Source: Saccoglossus kowalevskii
Lineage: Eukaryota; Hemichordata; Enteropneusta; Harrimaniidae
Direction of reading: 5' to 3'
Assembly: GCF_000003605.2 (NCBI RefSeq)
Contig: NW_003109978.1
Location: 442,354 to 470,515, forward strand
Length of the DNA stretch: 28,162 nt
In this document: one piece after another, positions 3,333 to 27,308 of the stretch
How the letters are laid out: each line of letters starts with the position of its first letter
Numbering within the stretch: the first letter of the stretch is position 1
The notes under the pieces: model-generated
Database searches by the model: none
Seen by the model: only the letters and a program-made list of their open reading frames with translations
Told to the model about the DNA's origin: nothing
Program-made: the position numbers and the translations under genes

Positions 3333-6300
3333 CTGTGAAAATATATACATATTTATATCAACTTGAAATCTTTCACTCTAAAATAGGTCGTTCCTATTGA
3401 GATTTAGGCCCCCTGTAGTTGAGATCAGTTACTTTATTTCTGTTCTATTTTTGACTCTGCTACGAGAAAGGTATTACGAAAATCATGGTCACAGATGTAT
3501 TCAAGTGAAGTCCATTGACAATTGTTAGATGTATAATGAAACATCAAATTAGTAGTATGACTTTTTGATTATTTTGACACTTTTGGTTGAACATCCACTA
3601 TGTGCTTTTTAATATTGATCTATGCCACTGTGTGCAAACAATTGTTGTTGCATTTTCCTGGGTTTGAATATGCGATTTGATTTCTGTTACTGTTACTGTA
3701 TGGTCAAAATGGCTCCACGTCGTGCCCTATGAGATGTACAATAACAACAGTGTTTCGGAGTTAAAATAAATAATTAATTTTAGAAATGATTTTTGGCAAC
3801 TTTGTCTATTAAAGTGCACCACTGAGATAAGGTCACTGACCGAAGGTTAATTAGAATGTCCTGGATTGTATTCACAATTCATGTATTCATGGACTGCATT
3901 GATCAACATTTTTCTTGTATATATATAATTAATTTAAATGAACTGGGGATTTCAAAGTATGAATTTTAAACATACGATATATAAAATAACACCAGCTTAC
4001 CTGTATACGCATCATCATTCACGTTTCCATGGTTTACAATTCCAGTCGTTCCAGGACTATGTAGGTCTTCAATTAGGTGCCTGAAAACAATATCACAAAC
4101 ATATATATTGTCCTATTTTGCATGACATCAACAAAAACGCGAATTAGGTTTCCGTTAATTTGGGTTGGAAATCTGGCAAAACGACGGTGGTTACGGAAGA
4201 AAGGGTTGTAAAGTTTTTTTTTTGTTTTTTTAATATAAAACCACATTTAATATGACACTGGTAATTACGTATATTTGTTTTTTTTTTAGTCAAACTGTAA
4301 ACAATGCTGATATTTTACCAAATTTTTTGCACTTTATGAATCCATCACCCACTCCAAACCCTAATACACAAATGTACTAATTTCCTGCACAGAACGTTAT
4401 AAATGATTGAACACGTGACTATTACGTATTTTTACGTATCAATGTCACAGAATGTCATTTCATAGATACACGCAACAGTTAAAAACATGCGTTAGTAATA
4501 TTCGTTGAATGCCAGAATGAATTCAAGAAAATGTTCAAATGTTAACATAAAGGGTGGTGGTCGTCGTGCCGCGTCCTGTTTGATATGGGACTCATAGCGA
4601 CGTACACAACGAAGGATAACGCGTGTAAAATACATCGTTTGTTTACACCGCCCTTTAAAGCGGGAGAGTCGTCACCTGCGCAGGCGTCAGATGGCCATTG
4701 CATGTCATTGTTTACAAACAAAGTCTACCCATGAGCCTTTGCGCTTTGTGACGTTTTGCGCAGGTGACGACTATTACGTGTTTACTTGTTATCCAGAATA
4801 CTCACCCGTCTTCGTGAGGTTCTAAAAATAAATAAAAAAAAAGATTATTGATTTTAATCCAATCTACAAAGGCTGTCACGTCAACTGTGTTGAATAATAC
4901 TACTCTGTCTCGATCGCCAGTGGAATCAAAGCCGTCCAAATCCCAGCCACCCTATTGGATAACTACATGTTGGTTTTGCCAGAGGGTGTCATTCAACCCT
5001 TTACATCCGGGATGGTATGTGATGCCGAAGTACTTTGTCCTCGTTGAACTTTGTAAAATGAAGCTTTGTTCAAAATGACAGGGCGCCAAATACATGTACA
5101 ACAAATTTGTCTTTAAAAAAAAACTTTGTTATTTCAAATAGACTGAGTCGAAACCCATTGATAACAGTCGTAGTGACGTATGCATATTCATAATAATAAT
5201 TTTAATGATAATTTTAATCATAATATTAATAATTCAACTGACTGACCTTTGGGTGGGACTTTTGGTGGTGATTTTCTTCTTTGAAAAAGACATATTACTA
5301 GTATAAGTAAAAGTACAATAAGAAGGACGCCACCACCGATTATACTGGGAAGCGCCCACTTGTTCTCAAAAAACGACGTGCCTATACATAAAACAAATAA
5401 GAATCGTGTGTAAACTTTTGAAAGTTTGATGAATGTGATGTATTTTTTGTCTTGTGAATTTATTGTCAATAGAAAAATTTTCAAAGTGAGTGTATTACAT
5501 TTGAACATTACACTCAAAGGCATAGTTGGTAGAACATTACACTCAAAGGCATAGTTGGTAGAACGAGCTCCAATATGGGGGAATTAACTACACTGCAGTT
5601 TCCGATAGATTCTAACTTAGATCGCGGAATCTACAGAAATTAGGTTACCATATTACCTCTATTATTAACGCAAGTGGTTACGATAACCACTATATGCTCT
5701 TTTATTGCAAACTGAATATGTGTTGTATGACACTGATATTTAACATAGTTTGTTTCACTGTGTTACGTCATAAAACTTCTACTTTTCGTACCTGTGCCGA
5801 TTATTGAAAGTTCTATCGTGTGTCTTGTAGTTCCTATCGCATTTGTTGCTTCGCATGTATACGTCCCTGTTTTCTTTTCCGTGACTTTTGTAAGATGGAG
5901 TGAGCTTGTTACTGTAGATCCATCGTAGTCATTTTTAATGTCAATATCTGTTATTTCCACACCAAAATTATTCTTCCATTTGATATATCTAATTGAAGGT
6001 ATGGCATCAATTTTACATATCAGGTTTGCGTCTTTTTCTTCCAATGCCTGCACGTTGTCACCAGTGATGATCGGAGAAACTGTTGAAAAAAACAGAACTT
6101 TAGTCATAACATTAACTTTCATTTGGGCACGTACACCGTCAACAACATTGTTGTGTCCGATTTCGTGAACAACTGAACAACAAATATTTGACATGTAATC
6201 ACATGTAATTTGAGCAATTTGTTTTTGTCAAATACGTATTTCAAACTGTTGTATTTTTAATATAGTTTGGGAGTGAAATTTTAAACATAATTGGAAAATC

Positions 6301-9300
6301 ACTTACAACCTATACTTCGTTCCTATAAAACGCCCGCTATCGACGAAACGCCTTTGTGACGTAGACGGGTGCAAGGGTTACCGTTCATGGCATCGGAACT
6401 ATTTTAACCCATCAATAACAAATACTGATTTTTTATTTCAAATTGACGAACACCTACACAGTTGCTTATTTGAACGAGTTTACTCACATCTATCTACGCC
6501 ATTTGTTACGTCACAGAAGATTCTCGACACTAGAGGGCGGGACTTATTAGAATAGTTTGTACCACAATGCAGAAAAACAAAATGTGAATGTATTATGTAA
6601 AACTTAAGTGATGATAAATATTGTATGCTTACAATGAACTGTGACGGATATCGTATCACTTCTAACATCTGCTGTTGACGAATCAAAATACTGCACGTAC
6701 GATACACAATAGTAAGATCCTGCAAGAGAACGTATCGTTTTTACCAGGTACCCAAGGACAGTAAAAGGCGATTCGTCTACCATCACTGTGGTCCCGTCAT
6801 CACCAGAGTAGTACAGTGCTAGCAAATATGGAGCAGGATATCCACCAACCGCAATACATGTTATATTTAAAGTTTCCCCAAGCAACAAAGGTTTTTCCGG
6901 TCCAGAAATGTTAACAATAGGTGGGTCTGAAATGAACAATTGTGTAACTGTATTAAATTAATTTTACTCGACTGCAAACGCATTTTGTGTGTTTCAAAGC
7001 ACAAATCTGTGATCTTGATAACCGATGTATTCGAAAAAATGAACGCAGTGACAGAAAAGAGTGGAATAATATTTGGTGGCAAACGTCAGTCACGTAATTC
7101 TCTAAATCTCCACGAGATCTCAGCGGCCATTTATGTCTCGTTTTATTTTCAGTATCTCATGTAACTTTCGAGTACTGTAGAATACATTATTTCTGCTGGA
7201 ATTAATTTTTGCTAAAAAGGCTTTTTGGGCGTTTTGTATGGAATTTTCTTTTCACTGATTTTTGATGAGTTTAATGTGAAATATAGGAAAAAAGTATATT
7301 CGCTGGATTTTATTTTTATGGAATAATCCTTTCAGCGAAAATAAATTCCAAGCGAAAATAAAGTATTCTACAGTACTTTATTTTTTGTATAGTTTACAAC
7401 AAATATCAGATTACACTGTCAAAGCTTGTTGTTTGTCGTTTTTGTCTTCTGTGTCGAACTCCGAAACGTTGAAAAGTAGCAAACATTTGTATTCGAAATA
7501 CAGTGAATTAAAAAAATACGAATCGTAAAATAATCCTGAACATACTAAAAAAATTGAATCCGGTGCTAGCATTAAAGGGCGGCAGTCGTCGCGCTGCGCA
7601 TGTGCGATATTTGTGATGATAAGCATTGATTTTCCCACAATCCAATGCGTTCTTCTAGTGTAAATCATAAGTAAATTAGTATGAGTTTTGACCTGGGCCG
7701 CGACTTGGACTAATTACCGCCGGTGGCTCCTTCGATACCTTCCAATCACCTAAAAATACACAATTTAAAGCTTGACAACATCCCAGTTTGTACTCGTTGA
7801 TCTGCGCAACAGTCAAAGTCGCTATCTTTGTTTATATGAGACCCATATATCTCGTGCATGCATGGCGCGACGGCTACCGCCCTTTAAATGTGTTACTGGT
7901 ACTTACATTCAACAATCAACTCCATGGTTGCTTGGTCAGTGGCTATAGTGTTATCGTGGAGCTCATTCACCGCTACGCAAGTATAATTCCCAGTATGAGT
8001 TCTGCTTACTGACCGTATCATAAATATAGTGTCGTTAGAGATAAACATAGCTTCCTTCTTCCACTTTACGTAATGTGGTCTGGGGTTGGCGACTATAGTG
8101 CAGATGAGCATAGTGTCGCGTCCTTCGACAATTCGGGTATGATCTTTAACTCTTACTACTGGTGGGTCTGCATATTATAGAATAGTGAATGAATACCAAC
8201 AGTTCGAATAACGGAATACCAACTAATAATTGCGTCCTCTATGCCCTCTAGCGGCGACACACTTCTGTGACGTCAACATGAAGCAGAGGGCTACAATCAA
8301 TATCGACCAAGTAGCCAACTCTGCTTGATTGTGTAATTGCTGGTCATTTACTAACACAGAAAATTATCGAAAAACAGTATTATTCGACGGATAATCACAG
8401 ATCAATGCAATATCGACGCTATGAACGGTTTTACTTACACTATTACGTCACAGAAGCTGTGTGAGGGCGCGACGTCCAAGGACGGTGTATTGGTTGTAAA
8501 ATTATCATATACGGGGATTAGTTCGAGCAATTCAAAGAGATACGTAAATAATAGCCTTACACATAGCCCGACTGTTATTTCAGACAACGCGTTTGGATGT
8601 TCATATTACAAATAATACTTAATCGACGAATATACACGGCATTCACACGCATGACAGAAACACTCCGTCAACCGTATTATCGGACTCATATGAGTGTAGG
8701 CCACATGAGCAAGTCGCCTAACGGAACAGTGGGAATTGCGTAAAGATTAGGCTGGGAATATTCCACTTATACGACTTAAAACGCGCTTTGACGAACGTCC
8801 GAATCTTCAAACATGTATTCAAAAATAATATACATATTAATAAAACTTGGGTCTTTGATGAATGTCAGCCGATGCCGTCTTATCCTAAAATTGCGTGCAA
8901 GGACCTAAGTAACTGCACACAAAGAGAAAGCGGTTTATCACGCGGGTTTTGTATTATACATACGATAATTTGATACTTACATTGTACGTCAACTATGGCT
9001 GTCCTTGAACTAATTCCCTGTGTTCCATCGAAGTAGGTATTATTAGCGCGACAGATATACTCCCCGGAATCACGTCTAGTTACGTTGAACAATGTGTGGT
9101 CGCTTGAGTTGTCTAATTGTACGCCATTATGTAGCCACTCAACACTGGCGTATTCAGGATTGGAGGCTGTTATTTCACATATCAGCGAGACATCGTCGCC
9201 TTCCTTGCAGAATATCTGTGACAAGATGCTTATAACAGGGGGAACTGTGAAATAATGGTTAACGAATGACATCAGAATTCAATAAATGGGTCATTTTAAA

Positions 9301-12300
9301 TGAGATCGTCACTACCCAATATTGTAATCTGACGTCATGGTTTTTCGGAACCTATCGGTCTGCATGTTTGGTCGCTGGGTCATCTTAAAAAAAATAATAA
9401 GTTAATAAATACAATCGCAATGATGATCGCTAAACATGTCCAGGTTACTAGATCACATATCTACATGAATAACACAAATGGCGATCATGTCTGACAGGTT
9501 GAAAGGTCATAGCGATGTGTTCTTGGTAAATGCATTAAATCGATTAATGTATTCACCGCAAGGAAATATACTCATCTGCAATGGAAAACATTAGGACACC
9601 ACTTATTAGCTGTATGCACCTTGGGGTTCATACTAGTATATCTTTCATTCATTATATTGTTTTGTAATGTATAATTGTGAGTTACTTGTTAGATGTTTTG
9701 TTTTCCCCCTGTGGCCTTTCATTTGTATTTTCCGAAATTGAATTGAAATAACATCACGAACTACATTAAGACAAGTTTATGAACGTGATATAACAGACGG
9801 CACAACCAAACACATATACAGTACATCACTAAACATTGTCAAATCAATGGCAGATAGGGAAATAGTCTCCGATGTATACAAGCAAAGGACAATGTCATAT
9901 GTTTCGAAATAAGTCAATAGGTCGTGCCCCACATGCTCCACCCGCAATATATCCTTCTGTGTCATATGGTTTTCTGCTAGAAACCAGGTGATATTGATGT
10001 CCACAGCGAATGCCAAATTCACCTGACAATTCAGGGACTAATGTTTGGGGTCAGCGTGATTTCCATTGCATTTTCATGTTAAATACTATAATCAGTTACT
10101 CAATTAGGAATATTGTACCTGGTTCAGTCATCTCCGAAAGAAAACAAATGCTGACACGTTAAGAAGGAAAGCGTGAGTTTGTTTTAGATAGGAAACATGT
10201 TGTTTATATTATATATATCAGAACACGTTGCGTAGTGCCCGTCAATTCATATAGATCTACTGGACTCGTTACTTACACTGAATATCTAGGTATATAAATG
10301 CATTGGCAAGTCCCTTTGTTCCGTCGTAAAAATTGTTCTCAGCATGACATCTGTATGTACCAATCTGGTCTCTGCTAACAGCATCGATCACAAGTTCCGA
10401 TGTTGTTGATACAATGGATCCATTCTGTGATTGCCATATTACGTTTGCTGTGGGGTTTGCATTTGATATGCACAGGACACTGTAATGTCCCCCCTCGATG
10501 ACTTCACCATTTTGATTATCGACTATTTGCAGATCCGGTTTGTCTGTAAATAAAAGCCATACACGTATTGACAAGTAAACTTGTAAACTTATCAGTAAAA
10601 CCGCGACCCAAGAACTATTGTTAACCATCATCGGATTAGTATTTACCAGTCTTAGAGTCTTAGAGTAATATGCGACTCGTGTGTTTCTGTCAAAATGTAC
10701 AAACAACATTTGAAATTTTAATGCTGTTATAAGTATGAAGGGGAAATGCTGGCCTTCTTGTTCGACGTTTTTTGATTATTTTTCTCCAAACTGTGTACGG
10801 TGATTCGTTATTTTTATTCAATTGTCTTCATACTTATAACAGTATTTTTGTTCTTTTCAGTTTTCATAGTAGACTATTTCAATACGTACACTGTATGTAA
10901 AGAGTTGTTACGTTGCTACCAGTTCCCATGCTGCCATCGTAAAAAATATTGGTTGCAGTGCAATTGTATTCTCCAACAAGATCCCGCGTGATGTCCGCCA
11001 TTTCGTAGATACCGGATCCATGTATAGCCATGCCGTCTTTATACCACATGATGGCGCTGTTATCTGGATTTGCATCGGCGACAGAGCATTCCAGCTGTAC
11101 GGTATCGCCCTCCTTTCGTGTCTGTGGAGAGGTTAAATTCACAACGGGGGGATCTAAAAGGGTATAAACAACATATACATTTGTATCATATAAATAGGCA
11201 TTTCCTGTCAGTCATGACCTCAAACGACAAAATGCTTATCTGACGTAATTGGGTGAAATAAAAGCCGTACACGACAGCCGAGTCATAGAGGGCGCTACAC
11301 GTGAATCTGAAGCGGTTCGACGACTGTGACGCTCAATAACTATTTCAATAACTGAAAATCAAACAATTTTATAAAAACATGGGGTTTGTTTTATATTTCT
11401 TTATGCAATTTACAAACTTAATGCAAAGAAGTATATAATCTAATATTACATTGTTATTATAATTACAATAATTATTTTATTGTAATTATTGTAGTAATAG
11501 TATACAGAAACCCAGTGTTCAAACTGAAATATAGACTAAAATTAAAACAGCATCACGATTTGTGTTCTCATTTGAAAAAAAACACACAATATGTTACTTG
11601 CACGTAAACCATTATTGTATATTGAACTCCTTTACAAATGGCAGAATTAAAACCTGCTTTCTCCCAAAATGAGGCTGATGTGTTGTCGCGTGTTGGACAA
11701 CATACACTGTGTTTTAGTTTGCAGTGTGAAACTGTATAGATCAATATCAATGGTGATAGAAACTTACATTGTACGTCAAAGAAAATCCAATCAGTATGAC
11801 TACCAATTGAGTTGTCCCAAAACACGTTCCTAGCTTTGCAGGTGTATATTCCCGTATGTTCACGGCGAACACTGTCTATGGCTAATGTTTCACTTCTGGA
11901 CACGATGTTACCTGCATATTCCCAGTGCACCACGGGTCCAGGGTTGGCGGTGACGTTACATCGCGTGATGTATGGCCGACCTTCGACGGCATACCAGTCT
12001 GACCTGTCACTGACGGTTACCGTAGGATCATCTGCGAAGAAGAAACACATGTTAGTCTATATTGTTGGCCTGGTAGAATAATTATTTTTTTTTGTATCAC
12101 GCCACATTGGCGATGCAACAAGTGTTATTTATTTTCTTTTACGTTGCTACTGCGAGATCTCGCATTTTGCGTGAAAACGAACTGAATTTCGATATTTAAC
12201 TAATGAATTTCAAAATCAAATCATTTGATTGTTGTAGTAGACGTTAGACCCGTGTTCCTCACGTATTACGCGAGAACTCGCAGTGATCAGTAAATCACCT

Positions 12301-15300
12301 ACGAATATACTTGTGTCAATGATCAAGGTGTATTCAATCATTACAGTATTGTCGTTTCGTTTCAAAGAGGATGCATTATACTGTAAAAAGGTTAATTATT
12401 CACTGGGTTTTAATTTTGCTTATTTCGCTGACTGGAAAATGCGCTAAATTAAAACCCAGTGAATATGTAAAATTGAGCATGGAACACATTATCTAAATAA
12501 TAAACAGTGAATTTAAAACCCACTGAATATGTCTGAAATGTCAAATCAGAAATTTAAACCCAATGAAAATTAGTCATTTTACAGTAATCTCTTATGAGGG
12601 CAGTGTGTCACGAACGAATACGTGAGAGCTTGCCATGTATACACGTGACTCACTTGGATTGTAGTAGAGATATCTTGTAGATGTTGGAGTATCCAGGCGA
12701 GATATCGGTTGAGCAGGGTGTTATATGTTTTAGTACATCACGGAAAATAACAATCTCAACAGAATGGCCACCACTGCTGGTATTTTCAAATGGTGGACCT
12801 GTTGCGTCAGACGCGCATTGAAAAATGGGCGAAAGACCATATAAGTGACCATGAAAAGGAGATCACGTTTCATAAATCTTGTGCAGTTACAAGGGGTGAT
12901 GTAGCGGACAATATGTCACACCATTGAACACAGTGTAATACGCTCTACCAGTAGAATACTAGTATATATATTTACTCACATTGCACATCGATAAAAATAC
13001 TGGCTTCTCCTTTTCCCCTCTCGTTATTCCAGAAAGTATTCACGACCTCACAGGTGTACAAGGCAGTTTTCTGGCGATCGATTTGTGTAAAATTCAGCCA
13101 TTCATTCCATGCACCCATATTCAACCATGACAACCCGTCAACAGCAGGTTCTGCTTCTAATACGATACATTGTATGGAAATAGATGCACCTTCTTTGACT
13201 TTTCCTCTGCCATCTGTATAACCCACGATATCCAGTACTACATCTGGTTCATCTAGAAATGTTTACATAATCGGTGTTAAACTGTTTTCAATTCCTTTCC
13301 TCTACACTACTACATTACCAGACACGTCTTCTTAAAGCCTCAGTCACGGTCAATGAACAGTTCGTTAAAAAGAGGAGTCGTCACATGCGCATGTGTCAGA
13401 TGGCCATAGCGTTTAATTGTTTACAAACATGCATCTACCCATGAGCCTTTGCGTTTTTTAGCGTGAAAAATACATTATTATAATAATTTGTATATGCAGT
13501 CTAAAAAGTTGTATGGTCGCCAAAATTAGGGTTGAATACGATATCTGTCTGGAATGACCACTGGAGTCTCGATTTTGCTTCCTACGTCTCTCCCTCTTGA
13601 ATTCATAGGTCGACTTTTTTACTCATGTTACGACTGCGTCTGAGGAATCATCGAACTTTCTAGGTTAGTTTTGTTTAGCGCGCTCTTGAAGCAGAATTCG
13701 AATGGCAATGCATAATGGGATTTATCATAGTAAAGATGCATCATGTTTCGATAAATATAACTCGCGAACGCTGTGATACTATAATAATAATAATAACTTT
13801 ATTGCCTCCGTGTAAAATTTTTTACATAGGATAAGTACAGCAAAAAAGAGTTTTAAAATAATAACAAGATATATGTAAGAATTTTACAAAAAAACAAAAC
13901 AAAAGAACTTAACTAGTATTTAAATGTTAAATAAATCTTTTTGTTATGTAAATATAATTGGCAAGTTCTATAATTATGTCAGGATCTTTGCTTGAGAGTA
14001 TATATGTGAACTGTATATTTTTATTGTTGGATGAAAGTAGTGTCATAATTTTTTGGATGAAATTTTCCCTGTGTGTGTTATATTTTGGNNNNNNNNNNNN
14101 NNNNNNNNNNNNNNNNNNNNNNNNNNNNNNNNNNNNNNNNNNNNNNNNNNNNNNNNNNNNNNNNNNNNNNNNNNNNNNNNNNNNNNNNNNNNNNNNNNNN
14201 NNNNNNNNNNNNNNNNNNNNNNNNNNNNNNNNNNNNNNNNNNNNNNNNNNNNNNNNNNNNNNNNNNNNNNNNNNNNNNNNNNNNNNNNNNNNNNNNNNNN
14301 NNNNNNNNNNNNNNNNNNNNNNNNNNNNNNNNNNNNNNNNNNNNNNNNNNNNNNNNNNNNNNNNNNNNNNNNNNNNNNNNNNNNNNNNNNNNNNNNNNNN
14401 NNNNNNNNNNNNNNNNNNNNNNNNNNNNNNNNNNNNNNNNNNNNNNNNNNNNNNNNNNNNNNNNNNNNNNNNNNNNNNNNNNNNNNNNNNNNNNNNNNNN
14501 NNNNNNNNNNNNNNNNNNNNNNNNNNNNNNNNNNNNNNNNNNNNNNNNNNNNNNNNNNNNNNNNNNNNNNNNNNNNNNNNNNNNNNNNNNNNNNNNNNNN
14601 NNNNNNNNNNNNNNNNNNNNNNNNNNNNNNNNNNNNNNNNNNNNNNNNNNNNNNNNNNNNNNNNNNNNNNNNNNNNNNNNNNNNNNNNNNNNNNNNNNNN
14701 NNNNNNNNNNNNNNNNNNNNNNNNNNNNNNNNNNNNNNNNNNNNNNNNNNNNNNNNNNNNNNNNNNNNNNNNNNNNNNNNNNNNNNNNNNNNNNNNNNNN
14801 NNNNNNNNNNNNNNNNNNNNNNNNNNNNNNNNNNNNNTTTTTGTTTGATAGTGAATGTTTTTTCTTTTATGAAGTTTAGTGAATTGTCTTTCAATATTGT
14901 ATGTATTGCATTTAACCATTTGTATTGTATAGTATTGTGTTGTGTTTGTTCTAGGTATGCCTGTTTTGTTAAGATTATCATCTGGGAGTTTCTTTATATG
15001 CAACCAGTAATTAATAGCTTGAACTTTTGCACTGAGTAGTAGTGGATAATGATCCACCTTTGCTCTTGTAAGATTTGTTTGCAGAATTTAATATTGATTT
15101 TTTCAATTGATGTTTTGTCCCATTTAGCATTGTCCTGAATGTCCTGCAAGTCTAGGGCCCATAATTCTGAGCCATAAAGCAAAATTGGTTTTATGTAAAT
15201 GTTAAATAGTTTCATTTTTAGTTTTATGTCTAGATTTCCTAAAAGTACTTTGTTCATGATGTAAATTGATTTTCCAGCTTTACCTGCTAAATTTGACATG

Positions 15301-18300
15301 GCATCAGCAAAACTCCCATTTGATTTTATTGTGATTCCTAGATATGTATAACTGTTATTTGAATGTTATCATTTCCAAAATTGAATTGGTATTTTTTTCT
15401 CAATGTTGATGAACCGAAGATAACAAGTTGAGTTTTTGAAAGGTTCACACTCAATTTCCACTTATTGCAATATTCATTTAGTGTATTTAATGATGTCTGT
15501 AGACCAGCCTGGGTAGTGGAAATAAGGGCTAAATCATCTGCATATAAAATAGAGTTAACAGTGTTATTATTCAGGAGTGGTGGTTCAGTATTAGCAATAT
15601 CCAAACTATCCTTTAAATCGTTAATAAAAATGTTGAAAAGAGTTGGGCTAATTATACATCCCTCTATTAATAGTGAATTCTTTGGTTATATAATTATTTA
15701 TATTAATGCAAGCTTTTGTTTTTGAATACATGTTTTTTATTATTTTGTAAATCTTGCCATTAATGTTATTTTTTAATAGTTTATAGAATAGCCCTACTCT
15801 CCATACCGTGTCGAATGCTTTGGCAAAATCTACAAAACAAACATAGAGTTTTTGTTTATTTTTAATGTGTTTTTGAATTAGAGTTTTTAATACAAAAATT
15901 TGATCAGTTGTTCTGTGGTTTTTTTCTGAAGCCAGTCTGGTTGTTTTTGAGTATTTTATTTTCTTCAATGAAACAGTTTATGCGTTTATTTATAATGGAA
16001 CAGAAGACTTTACCAATACAACTTGAAACAGATATTCCCCTGTAATTTTGAGGGTCTAATTTGTCTCCTTTTTTATAAAGATATAACGATTTTTTTATAT
16101 TCAGATGTGATTGTTCGCGCTTATTTGATCAAAGACCTCCCAACCCCTACAAAAAATACCTAATTGAAGCTTAGTAACGTCTCAGTTTAGACTTGTTGGC
16201 TAGCATGCATACGACGACCACCGCTCTATAATAATTTGATGTGTTTTCCAAGGAAGTACAGTTGTTGATGTCGAAGTCTAGGGAAACCAGCAATTAATAA
16301 CCCAAGCAAACATATGTACATGTGTGATCCATCATGCGTGTGGAAATACTATGCCGTGCCCAGGAGCTGATCCTGGCCAGCAAAATGTAATGGGGGTGGG
16401 GGTGGGGGTGGGGGGTGGGGGATGGGGGTTGGGGGTTGGGGGCGGGTGGGGATTGGAAGATTCGCTTAAAATTTACGAAGCGTAAATCGCAGAGAAGCTA
16501 TGCGTAGTCCAGATGATATGAATGATCGTTTTTTTTTGGGGGGGGGGGACATGGCCCCCCTGGCCCCCTTCTGGATCCCATCAAGAAAGGCCTCACACTT
16601 ACGTACACAATGTTTAAAAACTGATATACTTACACTGCACCGTTAATTGTATATAATCCACACCGTCACCAATTTCACCATTATGGAAAGTGTTACTGGC
16701 ATCGCACAGGTACATCCCTTCGTCTTGAACTCTCACTTCCTCGATCACAAGCTGTGATTGTCGTATGCGTGTTATTCCAGTCGGATCCAACCATTCAATG
16801 GCAGATTCAGGATTTGAATCAACCGTACAATTAGCGATGTAGCGTCGTCCCCTGATTGCCATTCCTTTGCTTTCGTCCTGTATTTTTACTATAGGTTTGT
16901 CTGTTGTAAAATATGTGGGTTAAAAATAGGGTGAAAATAAGTATCTGAAGTAGGAACCACTAGCATGTGTTACTATGACTACGGTGTTGATGTTTTTAGA
17001 ATCAACATCTTAATATCATATATGCATAAAGCACGTGTTGCCCAATATTGTAGCGATCAAATATGTCAATGAGGTTTGATGCCTATTTATTTATTAATTT
17101 ATACTGACTTTGCTTAATGTGGTTACCCAATTCACGATACATACATCATAGAAAACAATCGCTCGTTGAAAATTGCAATGACGTCAACAACACCGAAAAA
17201 TGAAAATAACAAAAACATTCAACAGGCAAAGAACGTAAGTGGCAATCAGCACGAATAACATTACGGTAACCGACACTGTAAAACTACATTCCATGCCAAT
17301 CCATTAATAACATACGTCTCGATGACTGGGATATTGGCAACGTTCCATTCGGAACATTCGAATAATTATAAACTTACACTGAACGTTAAGGTGTATCGTC
17401 GCATTACCATATCCTTCGTCTCCGGTATAAAGCGTGTTTTCTGCCTCACACGTGTATGCTCGCTTGTGGTTTTTAGTAGCTCTTATTATTCGAAGCACCT
17501 CCCCATTAACGTCTACCCCTCCTCCGTAATTCACCCAAATTCCAAAAGTATCAGGATTGGCTGATACATTGCAAATAGCTACGTAGTCTCGACCTTCGAT
17601 AACTGTCGTGTTACTGGCATCCATAATAGTGACATCAGGAGAATCTTTATATAGAAAAATAATATTCAAACAGTGTCATAAAAACATGCATAGTTATGCG
17701 CAATAATTTGTTTGTGTTGGTAGTGCTTTCAATATTGTCATTTTTAGTTGTACGCATGCGCACACAGATAACAAATATGGCGACAGTCTTAGGCGCCACG
17801 CCCAATCATTTTGATCGTCACACTAGAAGAAATATGATAGTATGCTGTATTTGCGACGAATAGTTACTGAAATGTACAACTAATTTTAAGCGATTATTGA
17901 TTGAAAATATGACAAAAATGTTCATTCAAACATATTGCATTGCATTGTTTGAGAAATTTATGCTTTACGATACAAAATGTAATTAAAAATATTATATTGA
18001 ATGGTAATGTACGTGATGTCATGTTCCAAGTTAAAATACACTTACATTGTACATCTAGTTGAACGTTCGCAGTGCCATTGCCTTCTTCGCCATTATAGTA
18101 TAGATTCGACATCACACACTTATATTGTCCACTTTCACTTCTGTCTATATTGTTGATTGTTATGTTGCTACTGTTTGCGATGATGTAATCGAATGGATTG
18201 GTCCAATATATGCGTTCCAATTCAGGAGGATTACCGTAGTCAACAATACGACAGTCACTGGAAAATGTTTCTCCTTCGACTAGAGGAGTGATACTTTCAG

Positions 18301-21300
18301 CTGAGGTTTCTACTTGCGGTGCATCTACAGTAAATGCAATTGATTATCTCAGTTAGTTGACAAATTATGCATATATGTTCAGTCAAATCTAGAGAGATTG
18401 ACATCTAATTTGTACGACAATCAGAGCTTAAGATCAAGCAAAGACGAAGTTCACAATGAGCTCCGACGATCACTAAAACTGTATATCCCCCGCTGCTGGG
18501 GAGAACACTTGTGTTATCATTATTATTTTACCGAGTAAACCTTAAAATAGTTCTTCCAAGACAGCCACGTAGAGCTGAATGCATGGCAGACATTCATTGT
18601 ATGTCTCGTTTTATACTTCATGTTTTTTTTGAATCTACAATTTCAGTCGAATGATGTTCCAGTTCCTATCAAAATTCCGGATCTTAATCTTAGTTAGGCA
18701 TTGGAATATGTTTGGATGTCATGGCCATTGGGTATAAGAGTATTTGAATGCACCAATGGTCCAGAAATTTGATTTACTATGAATTTGATATTTTCTGACT
18801 CATGAGAGTGTTAACTTGTGAAATCATTGTAACTTATAATACGACGTTCAATAAAATTGGAATGTTTTGGATCGCGAGGCATACCCAGCAATGAAATGAA
18901 CATGACACAGGGACTATTTATCTAATGAATATTGACATCGACATCCAATGTACGGATGTAGCTTGATATCAGAGGATATATATTCGTTATTGTTCATACA
19001 ACGACAATTTTGGCAAATAATAAATCGAAAGAGGTCAAAGGGCAGACGATCCTTCAACGTTGAATAGTTACCTGTCTTAAAATGTACAAACAAATTTCTT
19101 GATAAATAGATTTAAGTGTCCGTTCTTAAAAATATCTGAAATCCATTATGAGATGTCCATTTGTTGATGTTCTCAGTGATCGTACCGTAGGCGAGTAATG
19201 AATCATATTGCCAACACGCGAAATAGTAGATGTAACCATATTACCTATTAAATTAATTATTTTAGTGTAATTTTAATTGGTCAATTTGATGGAATTACAA
19301 ACTGAAACATATTCGTATGAAGAAGAGATTCTAAATATATCAATCGATTAAAGTTAACTGAGCCAGCGTTCCATTGCGTAGGAATAAACACATTTTAATA
19401 ATACATTTAAAGTATCGAAGAATGTTAATTAGCACATTCTTATCTCTAGAATTGCAATCTATTTTCTGATTATGCACATTTCATTTCATAAAGATATATG
19501 TTACTTACATTGGACGTCCATCGTGATCTGAAGATCACATGACACCAACGACCACTGATTCGACGGCAGTGTATAGTGTTCCAGCTGACAGTCGATGTAG
19601 CAATCGGTGTCTGCTCGAGTGAACGTAGTATTCCAGATATTGGTCATGGATGTTTCGCGAGATACTTGAATTCCGTTCTTGTACCACACCAGGTCTCCAG
19701 GGGCGTCGCTACTCAGATCCATGGAGCAAGTGAACACTGTGTGCTCACCGGCGATGACAGTCATTCCTTTATCGACACTACAAGTCGTACCATTCTCTGC
19801 AAAAACATAAAATAAATACTGCAACGTTACGTATTACCCAATTATGAAACAAATAACATCGGACATTAGTTACTTAATGTTTGACTCGTCTGACATACTT
19901 TTGACAGGAATTTTAAGAACTTTTGCTCAATTTTTCAATCTAAGAATAACCGATCGATTGGGGTGAAAATCATCGAAATGAAAAAATTACTATTTTTTGG
20001 GAAATCACAAAGTTATTGATTTCATAGCTACTAGCAATTATGGTAGGTAATTAAGTTTGTCGCAGTTATTGCAACTTTAACTGGTGTCGAATTTTTGATA
20101 ATAAATAGCAATGGTTTGAAATGAGCAAACACAAAATATACTAAACTTGTGTATTCTCATCTGCCCAGTTGTCAAAAAATCACCCTTCATGGCCATGGTC
20201 TTGTACTAGCAAACATTGTATAAGATGTCCATTTTCGGACGTATTAAGTATTTTATAGTACATTGATTGCGAATGAATACGCGTTGGAACAATCTCTCCA
20301 AAAAGACAATATTGAACAAATCTCGGAACTGAAATTCAACTATCATTCAACTTTATATTCCATATTGCAATAACCGACATCGATATAATCACTCATAAAA
20401 ATTGGAAGTATATCATATATAATATTTCCGAATATGTAAGTGTCCCACATTTTGAAACGTAATCGTTAAAATCAGAAGCAAATATGTTATAATGACGTAA
20501 TCAATAGTATCTCGGCGCTTTTTATTACTCTTTTGATCAATAATTTTGCAATGAAGAGGTCAAAAGGTCAAAACAACGGCTTTAAACATCTTATCGAATA
20601 GCTGACCAGGCATAAGTGATGTGTTCGATGCATGCATAATATAGGATATTGATTTCGTCAAAGTGGTTTTCGTTTACCACACCATTAAATATACGCGTTA
20701 TTCACGCTGAGACAATGTATTCTAATAATATATTCTTTACAATGACAAGCATTTGAAGATCGTACAGACCTATTACATATATGCGCGCAGAGGCTCTGGA
20801 AGAAAGGTCGGCAAAGTCCCCACACTCGTAGATATCCTGCTGATCCACTGTTGCATTGTGAATTTTCAAATGGAATTCTTGCTCTTCGCCAACTATCTCG
20901 TATCTGTCATCTTGGTATGTAACTATTCTTCCCAATGATATCCCTTGCTTATTCTCCCCTTTGTACCACGCTACAAAAAGGGGCTCGTCGTAATAGCTAC
21001 AGTTCAATTGCACGGTATTTCCGAAGATGACGAGAGTCGGGACGGGAACTTCTTTGAATGCGTGTATTCGTGAATGCACGATCGCACCTATGAATTGACA
21101 AAAAACAACAACAAATAATCAAGTTTCCCGAAACATTAATCAAACTTTGTATAATTACCAATGGTATTATTTCCTCGTGCAGACAAAGTATGTATCCTCG
21201 ACTTCCCCGCAAAACGAAACCCTGCATTTGTTATGAGTGTGGATGAGCAACATCTATGGACAATACAAAATAAACGCAGCTCACCTATAAAGATCATCAG

Positions 21301-23149: not shown

Positions 23150-23314
23150 TTAAAGCGGGAGGGTCGTCACCTGCGCACGCGCGGGAATTGAGTTCCAAGC
23201 GACGATAACAACGCACGCAAAAAACTCAAAGACTCACCGATAGACGCTTTCTTGTAAACAATGACACGCTATGGCCATCTGACGCATGCGCAGGTGACGA
23301 TTCCTCCGCTTTAA
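23150..23314. mobile_element. TTAA-flanked MITE-like element, 165 bp
   Basis: TTAA-AGCGGGAGGGTCGTCACC then TGCGCA at the left faces TGCGCAGGTGACGATTCCTC then CGCT-TTAA at the right. It is the most intact copy of the family with fragments at 4655-4776 and 13365-13463. TTAA at both ends fits piggyBac-like mobilisation. It has no coding capacity. Confidence 0.75.
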
Positions 23315-25414
23315 ACCTTCTTGCTGAAAGTTAAATATCAAAAAAAAAAAAAAAAGTGAAACATCACGGGCACAGTGCCAACATCCGATATTTTTCTATG
23401 CAGGGGTTATTCTGGATTTACCTAAGCATGAACATGCACGTACAAAAGTTAATACATATATCAGAACATCGGAATTGCATTAATTACATTTGATAATTCT
23501 ATCTAATACGTTTAATGTCGAGATACCTACACATACAACTATATGAGAACTCTCAATTTAAAATTAGATTTAAAAGAGTTAATTATTCATTGGGTTTTAA
23601 TTTTCCTTATTTCGCTGACTCGAAATGCGCTAAATTAAAACCCAGTGAATATGTAAAATTTAGCATCATCTAAATGATAAAACCGTGCATTTGAAATGGT
23701 AAATCAGCGAAATTTAAACCAAGTGAAAATTAGTCATTTTACATTACACATTTTAAAAGAAAATGGTTGTGTTGAAATGTACAAGATTTGTGAATAAATA
23801 TAACGCCAATAACATTTCTGGACAACGTCAAAATAAATGTAATTTACACTGAACGTACTCCGCGTACACGAAGTGCACAATAATATGTATTATACAGTTA
23901 ACGTAATGATCAGTTATCTATCTGTGTGTATGTTATTTAAGATCAGCATAAATTATCATGTATTAGTGCATTTTTTTTGTTCCGCCCAAATTAATGAGTG
24001 GTTATTTAGAACTAAAATTTCTGTTAGTTCATGGTGGATTTAATGAACAACAAATAATTGTATTGCACTAAGTGCATTGTGATGGTTACATGTCGGATAT
24101 CCTTCCATCAGTGGCGACGGCACCCTCAAAATTCCGTGCCGCCGCGTCTGTTCCAGTTGTGTGACGGTTATGCGGGGAAACGTGAGGGTTTCTTTCCCTC
24201 TGCTATACAAACTAACTGGAACCGGAACCGGAAATGTAATTTTATGCAGTGCAAGCTTCACAAAACTCCCACACATGCGATATATTTTGAATGCAGTACC
24301 ACTTGTCACCCCATCAAACTGAAGCTGTTTTTGACAGTAGTTGTTATGCAAATGTTCTACTAAAGGTAGAACCTGTCCCACTACAATCCAAATGTGTTGT
24401 TTTTTAAGATAGTGACTCGTGATAAAGGTAGACCCTGCCCAAGTACAGCTCAACGGTTTGGCCAGACCTAGTGACCTATCCTTACTGAAGGTTGAGTCGC
24501 TCCGCAGTGCAGTCCATCTTTACCTGTTAGATCATTGATGTTCTATGAAGGAGCAAACCTAATTTAATTTATATTGGATTTTGTAAGTCAGAAATTTAGT
24601 AACAACAGTGGTTTGAGTATGGAGATACTGATCTGGTAGCTCGTAAATGTATCAACCAGAAGTCCACCACTGAGGGCGCACATCACCACCCGCTTTTAAA
24701 ATGATGTTATAATCGTAAAACATTAGTAGAGAGGGGGACCCCACCAAAAACCTTCTTAAACTGTAGAAAACATCACAATGGAAGTAAAAACTCAGCCTTA
24801 GAAGGAAATAGCGCCACCACCAGATGTTGAAAGTGACGTACAAAACCAAATATTTGGCCGGCGCCATCACTGGAAAAGTCGAGAAATACGCGAACCACGT
24901 GACTAAAACAGAAATATCATCATACCTATCAGGTTAGAGTACTACGGGTTGCCTCTGGTACATAATTAATAATTAATTATCATGCAATAATAACATCGCC
25001 ACGGTTACATGCTGTTACATGATAATTTCATATAATCTTACCTAATACGCACATTTTTCTTTTTTTATTCTTAATTGAGTATGAATACGTGGTTGGAATT
25101 ATGTCTTATTTCCAAGAGTAGCAGCATGTTAGGCCAGGAATAAAAAAAAATGTTCCTAATTGCTCAAAAGCAGAACAGAATGCACTAGAAGCATATTTAA
25201 ATGTTTTTGCAACTCCCCCAAAAAGTACGGACACAAATGCATTTCCACTAATATAATTGATATTTGATGGAGTTATGACTTATATTATAATGACGAGAAA
25301 TGTTTATGTTGTGCTAGTTTATATGTATATATTTCCATATTGTAAGTATTTTTATGATAGTTTTACGTTCGTTATTGTTCAACGAATATTGTGTATATGA
25401 TTATTTCTAAACAG
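23315..25414. other. Intergenic stretch with an unassigned two-strand open region
   Basis: A 15-base A-run near 23341 and a MITE at 23570-23745 are recognisable. At 24453-24040 the minus strand is open for 137 codons and the plus strand is open over 24058-24363; the region looks less AT-rich than its surroundings. The minus frame includes VSLYSRGKETLTFPRITVTQ, which I do not recognise. It could be an old repeat. Nothing else was identified. Confidence 0.35.
23570..23745. mobile_element. TA-flanked MITE-like element, ends CTGTAAAA family, copy 2
   Basis: It shares GTTAATTATTCA(C/T)TGGG, TTATTTCGCTGACT, ATGCGCTAAATTAAAACCCA and the right end GAAAATTAGTCATTTTACA with the copy at 12380-12585, in the same order. 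The left terminus is eroded (TTTAAAAGAG), so this copy is older or truncated. Confidence 0.7.
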
Positions 25415-27107: not shown

Positions 27108-27308
27108 CATTGTGAGTTTAAACATGGCCGGAATTCTGTGGAAACTTCTCCCAGACCTGGTTGTCCCTCTTCTGTCTTTGATGAGACATCTGTCCGTCAA
27201 GTTGAGGAAGATCGACACATTACTGTTCGCCAAATAGCCCAAGAGATCAAGATTAGTACAGGGTCTGTGGAAACTATCATTCATGATCATTTGCATATGG
27301 CAAAATAG
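27108..27308 (+). pseudogene. Mariner-type transposase N-terminal fragment
   Basis: The frame reads EFKHGRNSVETSPRPGCPSS, then QVEEDRHITVRQIAQEIKIS and TGSVETIIHDHLHMAK before TAG. This matches the DNA-binding half of mariner transposases: the F-K-x-G-R-x-S-V-E linker, the G-R-P-like turn, and the second helix-turn-helix with R-x-I-T-V-R-Q-I-A and G-S-V-x-x-I-x-H-x-x-L. A stop precedes it at 27105 and another ends it, and the catalytic DD(E/D) domain was not found downstream. It is a dead fragment. The match is from family knowledge. Confidence 0.8.

Follow-up and report, generated by a model that had tools for sequence, protein, structure and literature searches.

Does a motif that recurs in consecutive domains of one protein record the copying of exons inside its gene, or something older? 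The question is raised by a stretch of 28,162 nucleotides of Saccoglossus kowalevskii DNA (the window; positions 442354-470515 of contig C446 in a 572-Mb assembly), which carries on its minus strand a gene of the immunoglobulin superfamily (IgSF) with 13 immunoglobulin (Ig) exons, numbered Ig1-Ig13, and a transmembrane exon after them. In eight consecutive domains, Ig3-Ig10, a sequence-only reading had noticed an N-x-aromatic-x-[DN]-G-x-x-G hairpin right after the F-strand cysteine and had taken it as the mark of a block grown by exon duplication. From the comparisons reported here, the hairpin looks like the badge of an Ig-domain subfamily spread over many sites in the genome, and not the trace of exon copying within this gene.

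A hairpin of nearly constant length

All eight hairpin peptides were found in place, and the reported interval 8981..18324 is exact: on the minus strand the Ig3 exon begins at 18324 and the Ig10 exon ends at 8981. The literal motif fits only five of the eight (Ig3, Ig5, Ig8, Ig9 and Ig10), since Ig4 (NTLYTGDEG) deviates at positions 3 (L) and 5 (T), and both Ig6 (NTFWNNERG) and Ig7 (NVFWDNSIG) deviate at position 6 (N). The signature had also been described as missing from Ig1, Ig2 and Ig11-Ig13, which is correct for Ig1, Ig2 and Ig13 but only in part for Ig11 and Ig12. In Ig11 (NELHDNTIA) the hairpin is of unchanged length with an eroded motif, and in Ig12 (VQYFDSSTA) it has one extra residue and no N, the counterpart in a neighbouring gene reading CKSYITFYDNTE. 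Because these two domains carry eroded versions, the hairpin run extends from Ig3 to Ig12. Length unites the group better than the literal motif: counted from the F-strand cysteine to the end of the exon, Ig3-Ig11 have 23 residues, Ig12 has 24 and Ig13 has 20. We propose to define the subfamily by this length of 23 residues together with N at the fourth position after the cysteine and [FLY] two residues further on, a combination present in all nine domains from Ig3 to Ig11; Ig12 departs from it in its 24 residues and its missing N.

The signature exceeds chance. A DNA pattern for Y-x-C-x3-N-x-[FY]-[FY]-[DN]-G-x-x-G, composed after the motif was known, had six matches in the window with up to three mismatches (three of them exact; Ig6 and Ig7 were missed) against 0.10 expected, and none of 100 shuffles reached six.

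Long and short Ig domains across the genome

To sample other Ig domains of the genome, a profile was built from ten window domains, each trimmed at the F-strand cysteine to keep the hairpin itself from steering the search. The stretches sampled surrounded Ig_3 matches or adjoined the window, and some later ones were chosen for their family-like look. Among 70 sampled domains, 35 were long, as counted from the F-strand cysteine to the exon end (34 with 23 residues, one with 25), and 34 were short (17-21 residues, with one donor miscall at 12), while one was miscalled at 30; the donor score was good in 34 of the 35 long and 28 of the 34 short domains. With Ig10 as a protein query, 39 matches at an expectation value (E) of 0.01 or less were obtained across 12 contigs, and all 11 further domains followed up from these (on seven contigs) had 23 residues, with T as the last base of the exon. 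Long-class domains were located on 12 contigs, later finds included. The resulting 46 long domains are a biased draw, as 11 came through the hairpin-bearing Ig10 query and several stretches were picked as family-like.

The sequence-only reading was right that the hairpin separates a group of Ig domains. Even the loose form N-x-[FLY]-[YFWH]-[DN] fits none of the 34 short-class domains but 36 of the 46 long-class ones, and the literal motif fits 16 of 46 against none of 34. Position by position, the 46 long domains have N in 44; T in 27 or I in 8; F in 24, L in 14 or Y in 8 (that is, [FLY] in all 46); Y in 14, W in 12, H in 10 or F in 5; D in 33 or N in 9 ([DN] in 42); G in 25, N in 7 or D in 6; S in 24, E in 9 or T in 7; a variable eighth position; and G in 35 at the ninth. 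The base at the exon junction also differs between the classes, with T found in 34 of the 35 long domains but in 6 of the 34 short ones, counted with relatedness ignored. In the window, the junction codon encodes Y or F at 11 of 13 junctions (Ig2-Ig3 through Ig12-Ig13), E at the Ig1-Ig2 junction and G at the one leading into the transmembrane exon. At the 21 junctions tried outside the window it encodes Y in 17 and H in one, and three on contig C55 were unresolved, one of these skipping an unlisted exon.

The further claim, of an F-G loop preserved against divergence elsewhere in the domain, did not hold. Conservation was scored over 30 non-redundant long-class domains, a set that kept Ig12 and left out six near-copies and one domain with a miscalled donor (C770:113064). 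The motif residues N (4.16 bits), [DN] (2.93), [FLY] (2.81), the aromatic (2.74) and the last G (2.39) lie above the column mean of 1.97 bits, and position 6 (G/N) only reaches it. As the core Cys, Trp and F-strand Tyr, the N-P of the BC loop and the Q before the linker all outrank the hairpin's aromatic and D/N positions, the loop is no outlier among the conserved columns. Both cysteines and the tyrosine of the Ig core are present in 30 of 30 of these domains, Ig3-Ig12 included, and the tryptophan in 29, Ig12 being the one without it.

Descent of the array

Trees were built from alignments without the hairpin, although those of 37 and 68 rows retain the first motif residue N, which the 48-row tree does not. 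Ig1 and Ig2 are absent from all of them, and Ig12 from these three; the 37-row and 68-row trees leave out C770:113064 and the latter also C2039:629742, both with miscalled donors. A fourth tree kept the N, Ig12 and C770:113064. Ig13 and its neighbouring-gene counterpart (C446:417986) are the only short-class rows in the two smaller trees and in the fourth. A single clade of Ig3-Ig10, whose absence the sequence-only reading had itself named as its refutation, was rejected by the approximately unbiased (AU) test (p = 5e-7 in the 37-row tree and 3.3e-4 in the 48-row tree), as was a single clade of Ig3-Ig11 (p = 2e-4, 37 rows). In contrast, the long class as one clade was not rejected in the 68-row tree containing both classes (p = 0.43), and on the free version of this tree the class label changes five times, versus 22.9 in shuffles.

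In the 48-row tree, Ig6 falls in a starred clade (96/94) with domains from contigs C1989, C1241, C1010, C665 and C1501, and Ig8 in another (99/89) with domains from the neighbouring gene, C504 and C1501. Ig13 is paired with its neighbouring-gene counterpart (95/88), and Ig3 with C1501:216275 (97/75, not starred). For each of the 13 window domains, some domain at another locus scores higher than any from the same gene, with a larger pool outside (39 domains) than inside (12); for Ig1 and Ig2 all match scores are weak. The rejected clade and the best matches elsewhere tell against a block grown by exon duplication, and on these comparisons the array, hairpin included, most likely predates this gene and was inherited rather than copied within it. 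A motif common to consecutive domains need not imply local exon duplication, as gene arrays can inherit it.

Gene and exon layout

The Ig exons run from 21087 to 5792 on the minus strand. All 13 have lengths divisible by three and phase 1-1 boundaries, and the features of the predicted gene are as follows.

20770..21087 (-): Ig1 exon, V-set-like; phase 1-1; donor gtctgt, a weak consensus; Pfam V-set 32.6 bits (cut-off 26)
19509..19796 (-): Ig2 exon, atypical, with extra cysteines and no hairpin motif; called from splice sites and phase; under every Pfam cut-off
18046..18324 (-): Ig3 exon; hairpin NLYYNGEEG at 18080-18106; Ig_3 29.1 bits, just below the cut-off of 30
17378..17644 (-): Ig4 exon; hairpin NTLYTGDEG at 17412-17438, with L and T in place of the aromatic and D/N; Ig_3 27.1 bits, below cut-off
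16634..16900 (-): Ig5 exon; hairpin NTFHNGEIG at 16668-16694; Ig_3 35.4 bits
12980..13252 (-): Ig6 exon; hairpin NTFWNNERG at 13014-13040; Ig_3 17.9 bits, below cut-off
11768..12031 (-): Ig7 exon; hairpin NVFWDNSIG at 11802-11828; Ig_3 43.2 bits
10890..11153 (-): Ig8 exon; hairpin NIFYDGSMG at 10924-10950; Ig_3 43.8 bits
10277..10543 (-): Ig9 exon; hairpin NNFYDGTKG at 10311-10337; Ig_3 36.5 bits
8981..9244 (-): Ig10 exon; hairpin NTYFDGTQG at 9015-9041; Ig_3 47.2 bits
7907..8167 (-): Ig11 exon; hairpin NELHDNTIA at 7941-7967, motif eroded but length unchanged (23 residues from the F-strand Cys)
6633..6926 (-): Ig12 exon, divergent, with VQYFDSSTA at 6670-6696; 24 residues after the Cys; Pfam 19.1 bits, below cut-off
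5792..6079 (-): Ig13 exon; short turn (NAIG), no hairpin; 20 residues after the Cys
5247..5381 (-): transmembrane exon, WALPSIIGGGVLLIVLLLILVICLFQRRKSPPKVPPK; phase-1 acceptor, in frame

At least one Pfam Ig cut-off is passed by eight of the 13 domains, Ig1 passing V-set and I-set and the other seven (Ig5, Ig7-Ig11 and Ig13) Ig_3 and others, and none is passed by Ig2, Ig3, Ig4, Ig6 or Ig12. Alignments to I-set (PF07679) stop at profile positions 78-80 of 90 in seven of the eight domains Ig3-Ig10 (Ig6 has no alignment) and at 83 in Ig11, and reach 90 of 90 in Ig13, so that a full-length match including the short F-G turn was obtained for none of Ig3-Ig10. As predicted from the DNA, serial Ig domains and one transmembrane segment lie in a single phase series, as in a tandem-Ig receptor. 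The product is most likely a type I membrane receptor of adhesion or recognition with a long Ig stalk. The phase-1 acceptor of Ig1 leads us to expect a signal exon upstream; neither this exon nor the remaining tail beyond the transmembrane exon was identified in the window.

The intron between Ig5 and Ig6 contains an assembly gap of 749 bases (14089-14837) and, near it, a reverse-transcriptase relic (15338-15977, minus strand) in two overlapping frames, with RVT_1 scores of 58.1 and 29.0 bits, respectively over and just below the cut-off of 29.6; a frame beside it (14994-15365) matched no family. An additional exon is therefore possible there. Elsewhere in the window, two kinds of interspersed repeat of about 100 bases, their copies 82-94% identical, were seen at 4654-4754, 13372-13465 and 23215-23315 (a kind also present near the neighbouring gene) and at 12386-12480 and 23572-23666. 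A perfect 29-base tandem duplication lies upstream of the transmembrane exon (5503-5564), a G-rich short-period array at 16391-16451, and a possible transposase helix-turn-helix fragment at 27108-27308 on the plus strand (four Pfam matches, all below cut-off).

The neighbouring paralogue and a related locus

About 23 kb away on the same strand, a neighbouring gene (C446:417.6-424.9 kb) has ten long domains followed by an Ig12-like domain, an Ig13-like domain and a transmembrane exon. By best match its order is Ig8, Ig9, Ig7, six Ig8-like domains, Ig12 and Ig13, which makes seven Ig8-like domains with the first included, and Ig8 is 52% identical to one domain of this gene. By these matches the 3' end (Ig12-like, Ig13-like and transmembrane exons) is clearly common to both genes, and the remainder appears only loosely collinear. 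On contig C1501 the order by best match is Ig3, Ig7, Ig10, Ig7, Ig8 and Ig11, with Ig4 and Ig6 as close second-best matches for the second and third domains. Taken by best match, the two loci speak against a simple shared domain order; if second choices were taken (Ig5 for Ig9 in the neighbouring gene, Ig4 and Ig6 on C1501), the collinearity of both would rise.

Exon duplication does occur in the family, to judge by a recent repeat in the neighbouring gene of a two-exon unit of about 1.45 kb (1.74 kb aligned at 89.5% identity). The rate of replacement changes (dN) was below that of silent changes (dS) in four of six comparisons of near-identical paralogue exons, and in the other two dS was 0 with five and two replacement changes, too few to judge; the six comparisons thus gave no clear sign of diversifying selection on the young exons of this gene.

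Proposed role of the hairpin and its alternatives

Taken together, these observations are consistent with an older subfamily of Ig domains with a long hairpin, arrays of which spread by gene duplication, here in an adhesion receptor in which the hairpin serves in packing between domains. We give this joint reading a probability of roughly 0.6. The subfamily would have an F-G beta-hairpin that exceeds by about five residues that of most other Ig domains in the genome sample, with the majority pattern N-[T/I]-[FLY]-[YWHF]-[DN]-[GND]-[STE]-x-G and an aromatic residue in a V-Q-[YF]-x-P linker. It would go back to one origin, or a few, earlier than the split of the present loci, and its arrays would then have spread as genes were duplicated, now and then with a two-exon duplication inside a gene. 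The tip of the F-G hairpin sits at the N-terminal pole of an Ig domain, facing the preceding domain. By virtue of this position in the Ig fold, each hairpin would most likely pack onto the linker and onto the C-terminal end of the domain before it, fixing the angle between the two domains, which would explain why the hairpin is kept at so many positions and loci. A structural clasp fits the hairpin's conservation over positions and loci, and its association with the aromatic linker, better than a specific ligand site does, and a structural role between domains would be the likeliest function. If so, the stiffness of large Ig receptors of the invertebrate type would be predictable from a single short sequence feature. 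A bolder version, in which hairpin and aromatic linker form a repeated clasp of an undescribed Ig class that is absent among solved structures and builds stiff receptors at 12 or more loci, we regard as doubtful.

Several points weigh against the joint reading. Nine of the ten domains in the detecting profile were long, which favoured kin of the window in the sampling even with the hairpin trimmed, and exon ends were set by a simple donor score, the donor being poor in 6 of the 34 short domains. The linker association may reflect shared descent alone. The free tree requires five label changes rather than one, which allows several origins or losses; the trees rest on 68-78 kept columns with few forks resolved, and the bootstrap of the 48-row tree was unsettled. 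Lastly, the packing step is inferred from the Ig fold in general, the one structural model, that of Ig9, being of a single domain.

Two alternatives concern the packing step alone. The hairpin could be a folding feature, an F-G turn inherited with the subfamily and with no role in contacts, which we consider possible although on the unlikely side. [DN]-G is a favoured hairpin turn, and the single-domain Ig9 model folds confidently, but this explanation accounts neither for the aromatic pair beside the turn nor for the association with an aromatic linker. Alternatively, it could be a ligand or homophilic binding surface, with many domains of the array taking part in binding. Binding through the F-G loop is common in the IgSF, and the variable position 8 would fit such a role. 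The motif core, however, is much alike over positions and loci, unlike a specificity loop, and dN below dS in the four informative exon comparisons argues in the same direction; we judge a binding surface unlikely.

The origin of the array has two further explanations. Growth of Ig3-Ig10 by serial exon duplication inside this gene, with the F-G loop kept, would suit consecutive exons that are all of phase 1-1, and the two-exon repeat of the paralogue provides a precedent. It is nevertheless very improbable, given the AU tests and the better matches of every window domain at other loci; moreover, among the 20 longest self-matches of the window that were listed, none lies between Ig exons. Gene conversion between arrays as the force that keeps the hairpin alike is scarcely credible, since the neighbouring-gene exons at C446:419-423 kb are indeed nearly identical to one another but the domain bodies within Ig3-Ig10 are merely 23-37% identical and some clades tie particular window domains to particular domains elsewhere.

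Comparison with known Ig proteins

An AlphaFold2 single-domain model of Ig9, made from the alignment of ten window domains, had a mean predicted local distance difference test score (pLDDT) of 96.0, with strands F (61-70) and G (76-87) flanking FYDGT. A Foldseek search with this model returned perlecan IG3 (1gl4) first, amphioxus IgVJ-C2 (5xpw; a 180-residue chain, 26% identity) second and Robo1 Ig5 (5o5i) third, with CEACAM5 also found, which places the modelled domain among ordinary extracellular Ig domains. With perlecan IG3 and Robo1 Ig5 only the Ig fold is common as far as compared; perlecan is a matrix protein and Robo1 a guidance protein, unlike the predicted receptor.

The hairpin itself was sought in several ways. 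With a profile of 25 hairpin segments (26 positions), no solved Ig chain gave a match covering the hairpin at E <= 10, a weak negative, and a single 26-residue hairpin had no matches among solved chains. Nine sequences reached E <= 10 with the hairpin profile and were set aside, eight of them covering only its first 7-10 positions and the ninth being a bacterial fimbriae-associated protein (positions 5-24, E 3.6). The hairpin DNA pattern had no matches in viral contigs and seven in bacterial and archaeal contigs, about the chance number estimated from its information content. In the literature searched, mostly at the level of abstracts and with PMC12051499 included, no description of the hairpin was recognised, and six spellings of the motif gave none. 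On the whole, the protein is of an ordinary kind, and the hairpin that clearly marks its subfamily was not encountered among solved structures. Similar strings probably occur in other invertebrate Ig proteins.

Profiles of whole domains reach much further. In three sequence-profile comparisons with solved chains, each giving its best 60 matches and displaying alignments for 5, 3 and 5 sequences, the matches listed included CEACAM5, MDGA1, Dscam, contactins, CD22 and MAG, and most of the best stretches among them end at, or a few residues past, the first N of the motif. Those listed as running on past this N were, in the first search, Robo1 (in two rows), NCAM1, otk and two shorter matches, in the second, rows of CEACAM1 and, in the third, Robo1 and otk, whose chains have five residues fewer than the profile; chains of Robo1 Ig1-4 match through the F-G end of the profile with 34 residues for 39 positions. 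CD22 (5vkj, 7o52) and MAG (5lf5, 5lfv) are near by both sequence and fold among the matches listed, and presumably share a similar Y-x-P linker, although their best stretches end 2-5 residues past the first N.

A further comparison is with the CEACAMs, which have an N-terminal V domain. Displayed alignments of CEACAM5 (1e07, 8bw0) stop at the N of the motif or one residue past it, and rows of CEACAM1 (9gh5) extend to query residue 80 with a chain three residues shorter. CEACAM5 is the top solved chain among the matches listed, with whole-chain E values of 9.2e-39 and 1.8e-24, and its likeness to the predicted receptor lies in its serial Ig domains and in its place as a Foldseek neighbour of the Ig9 model.

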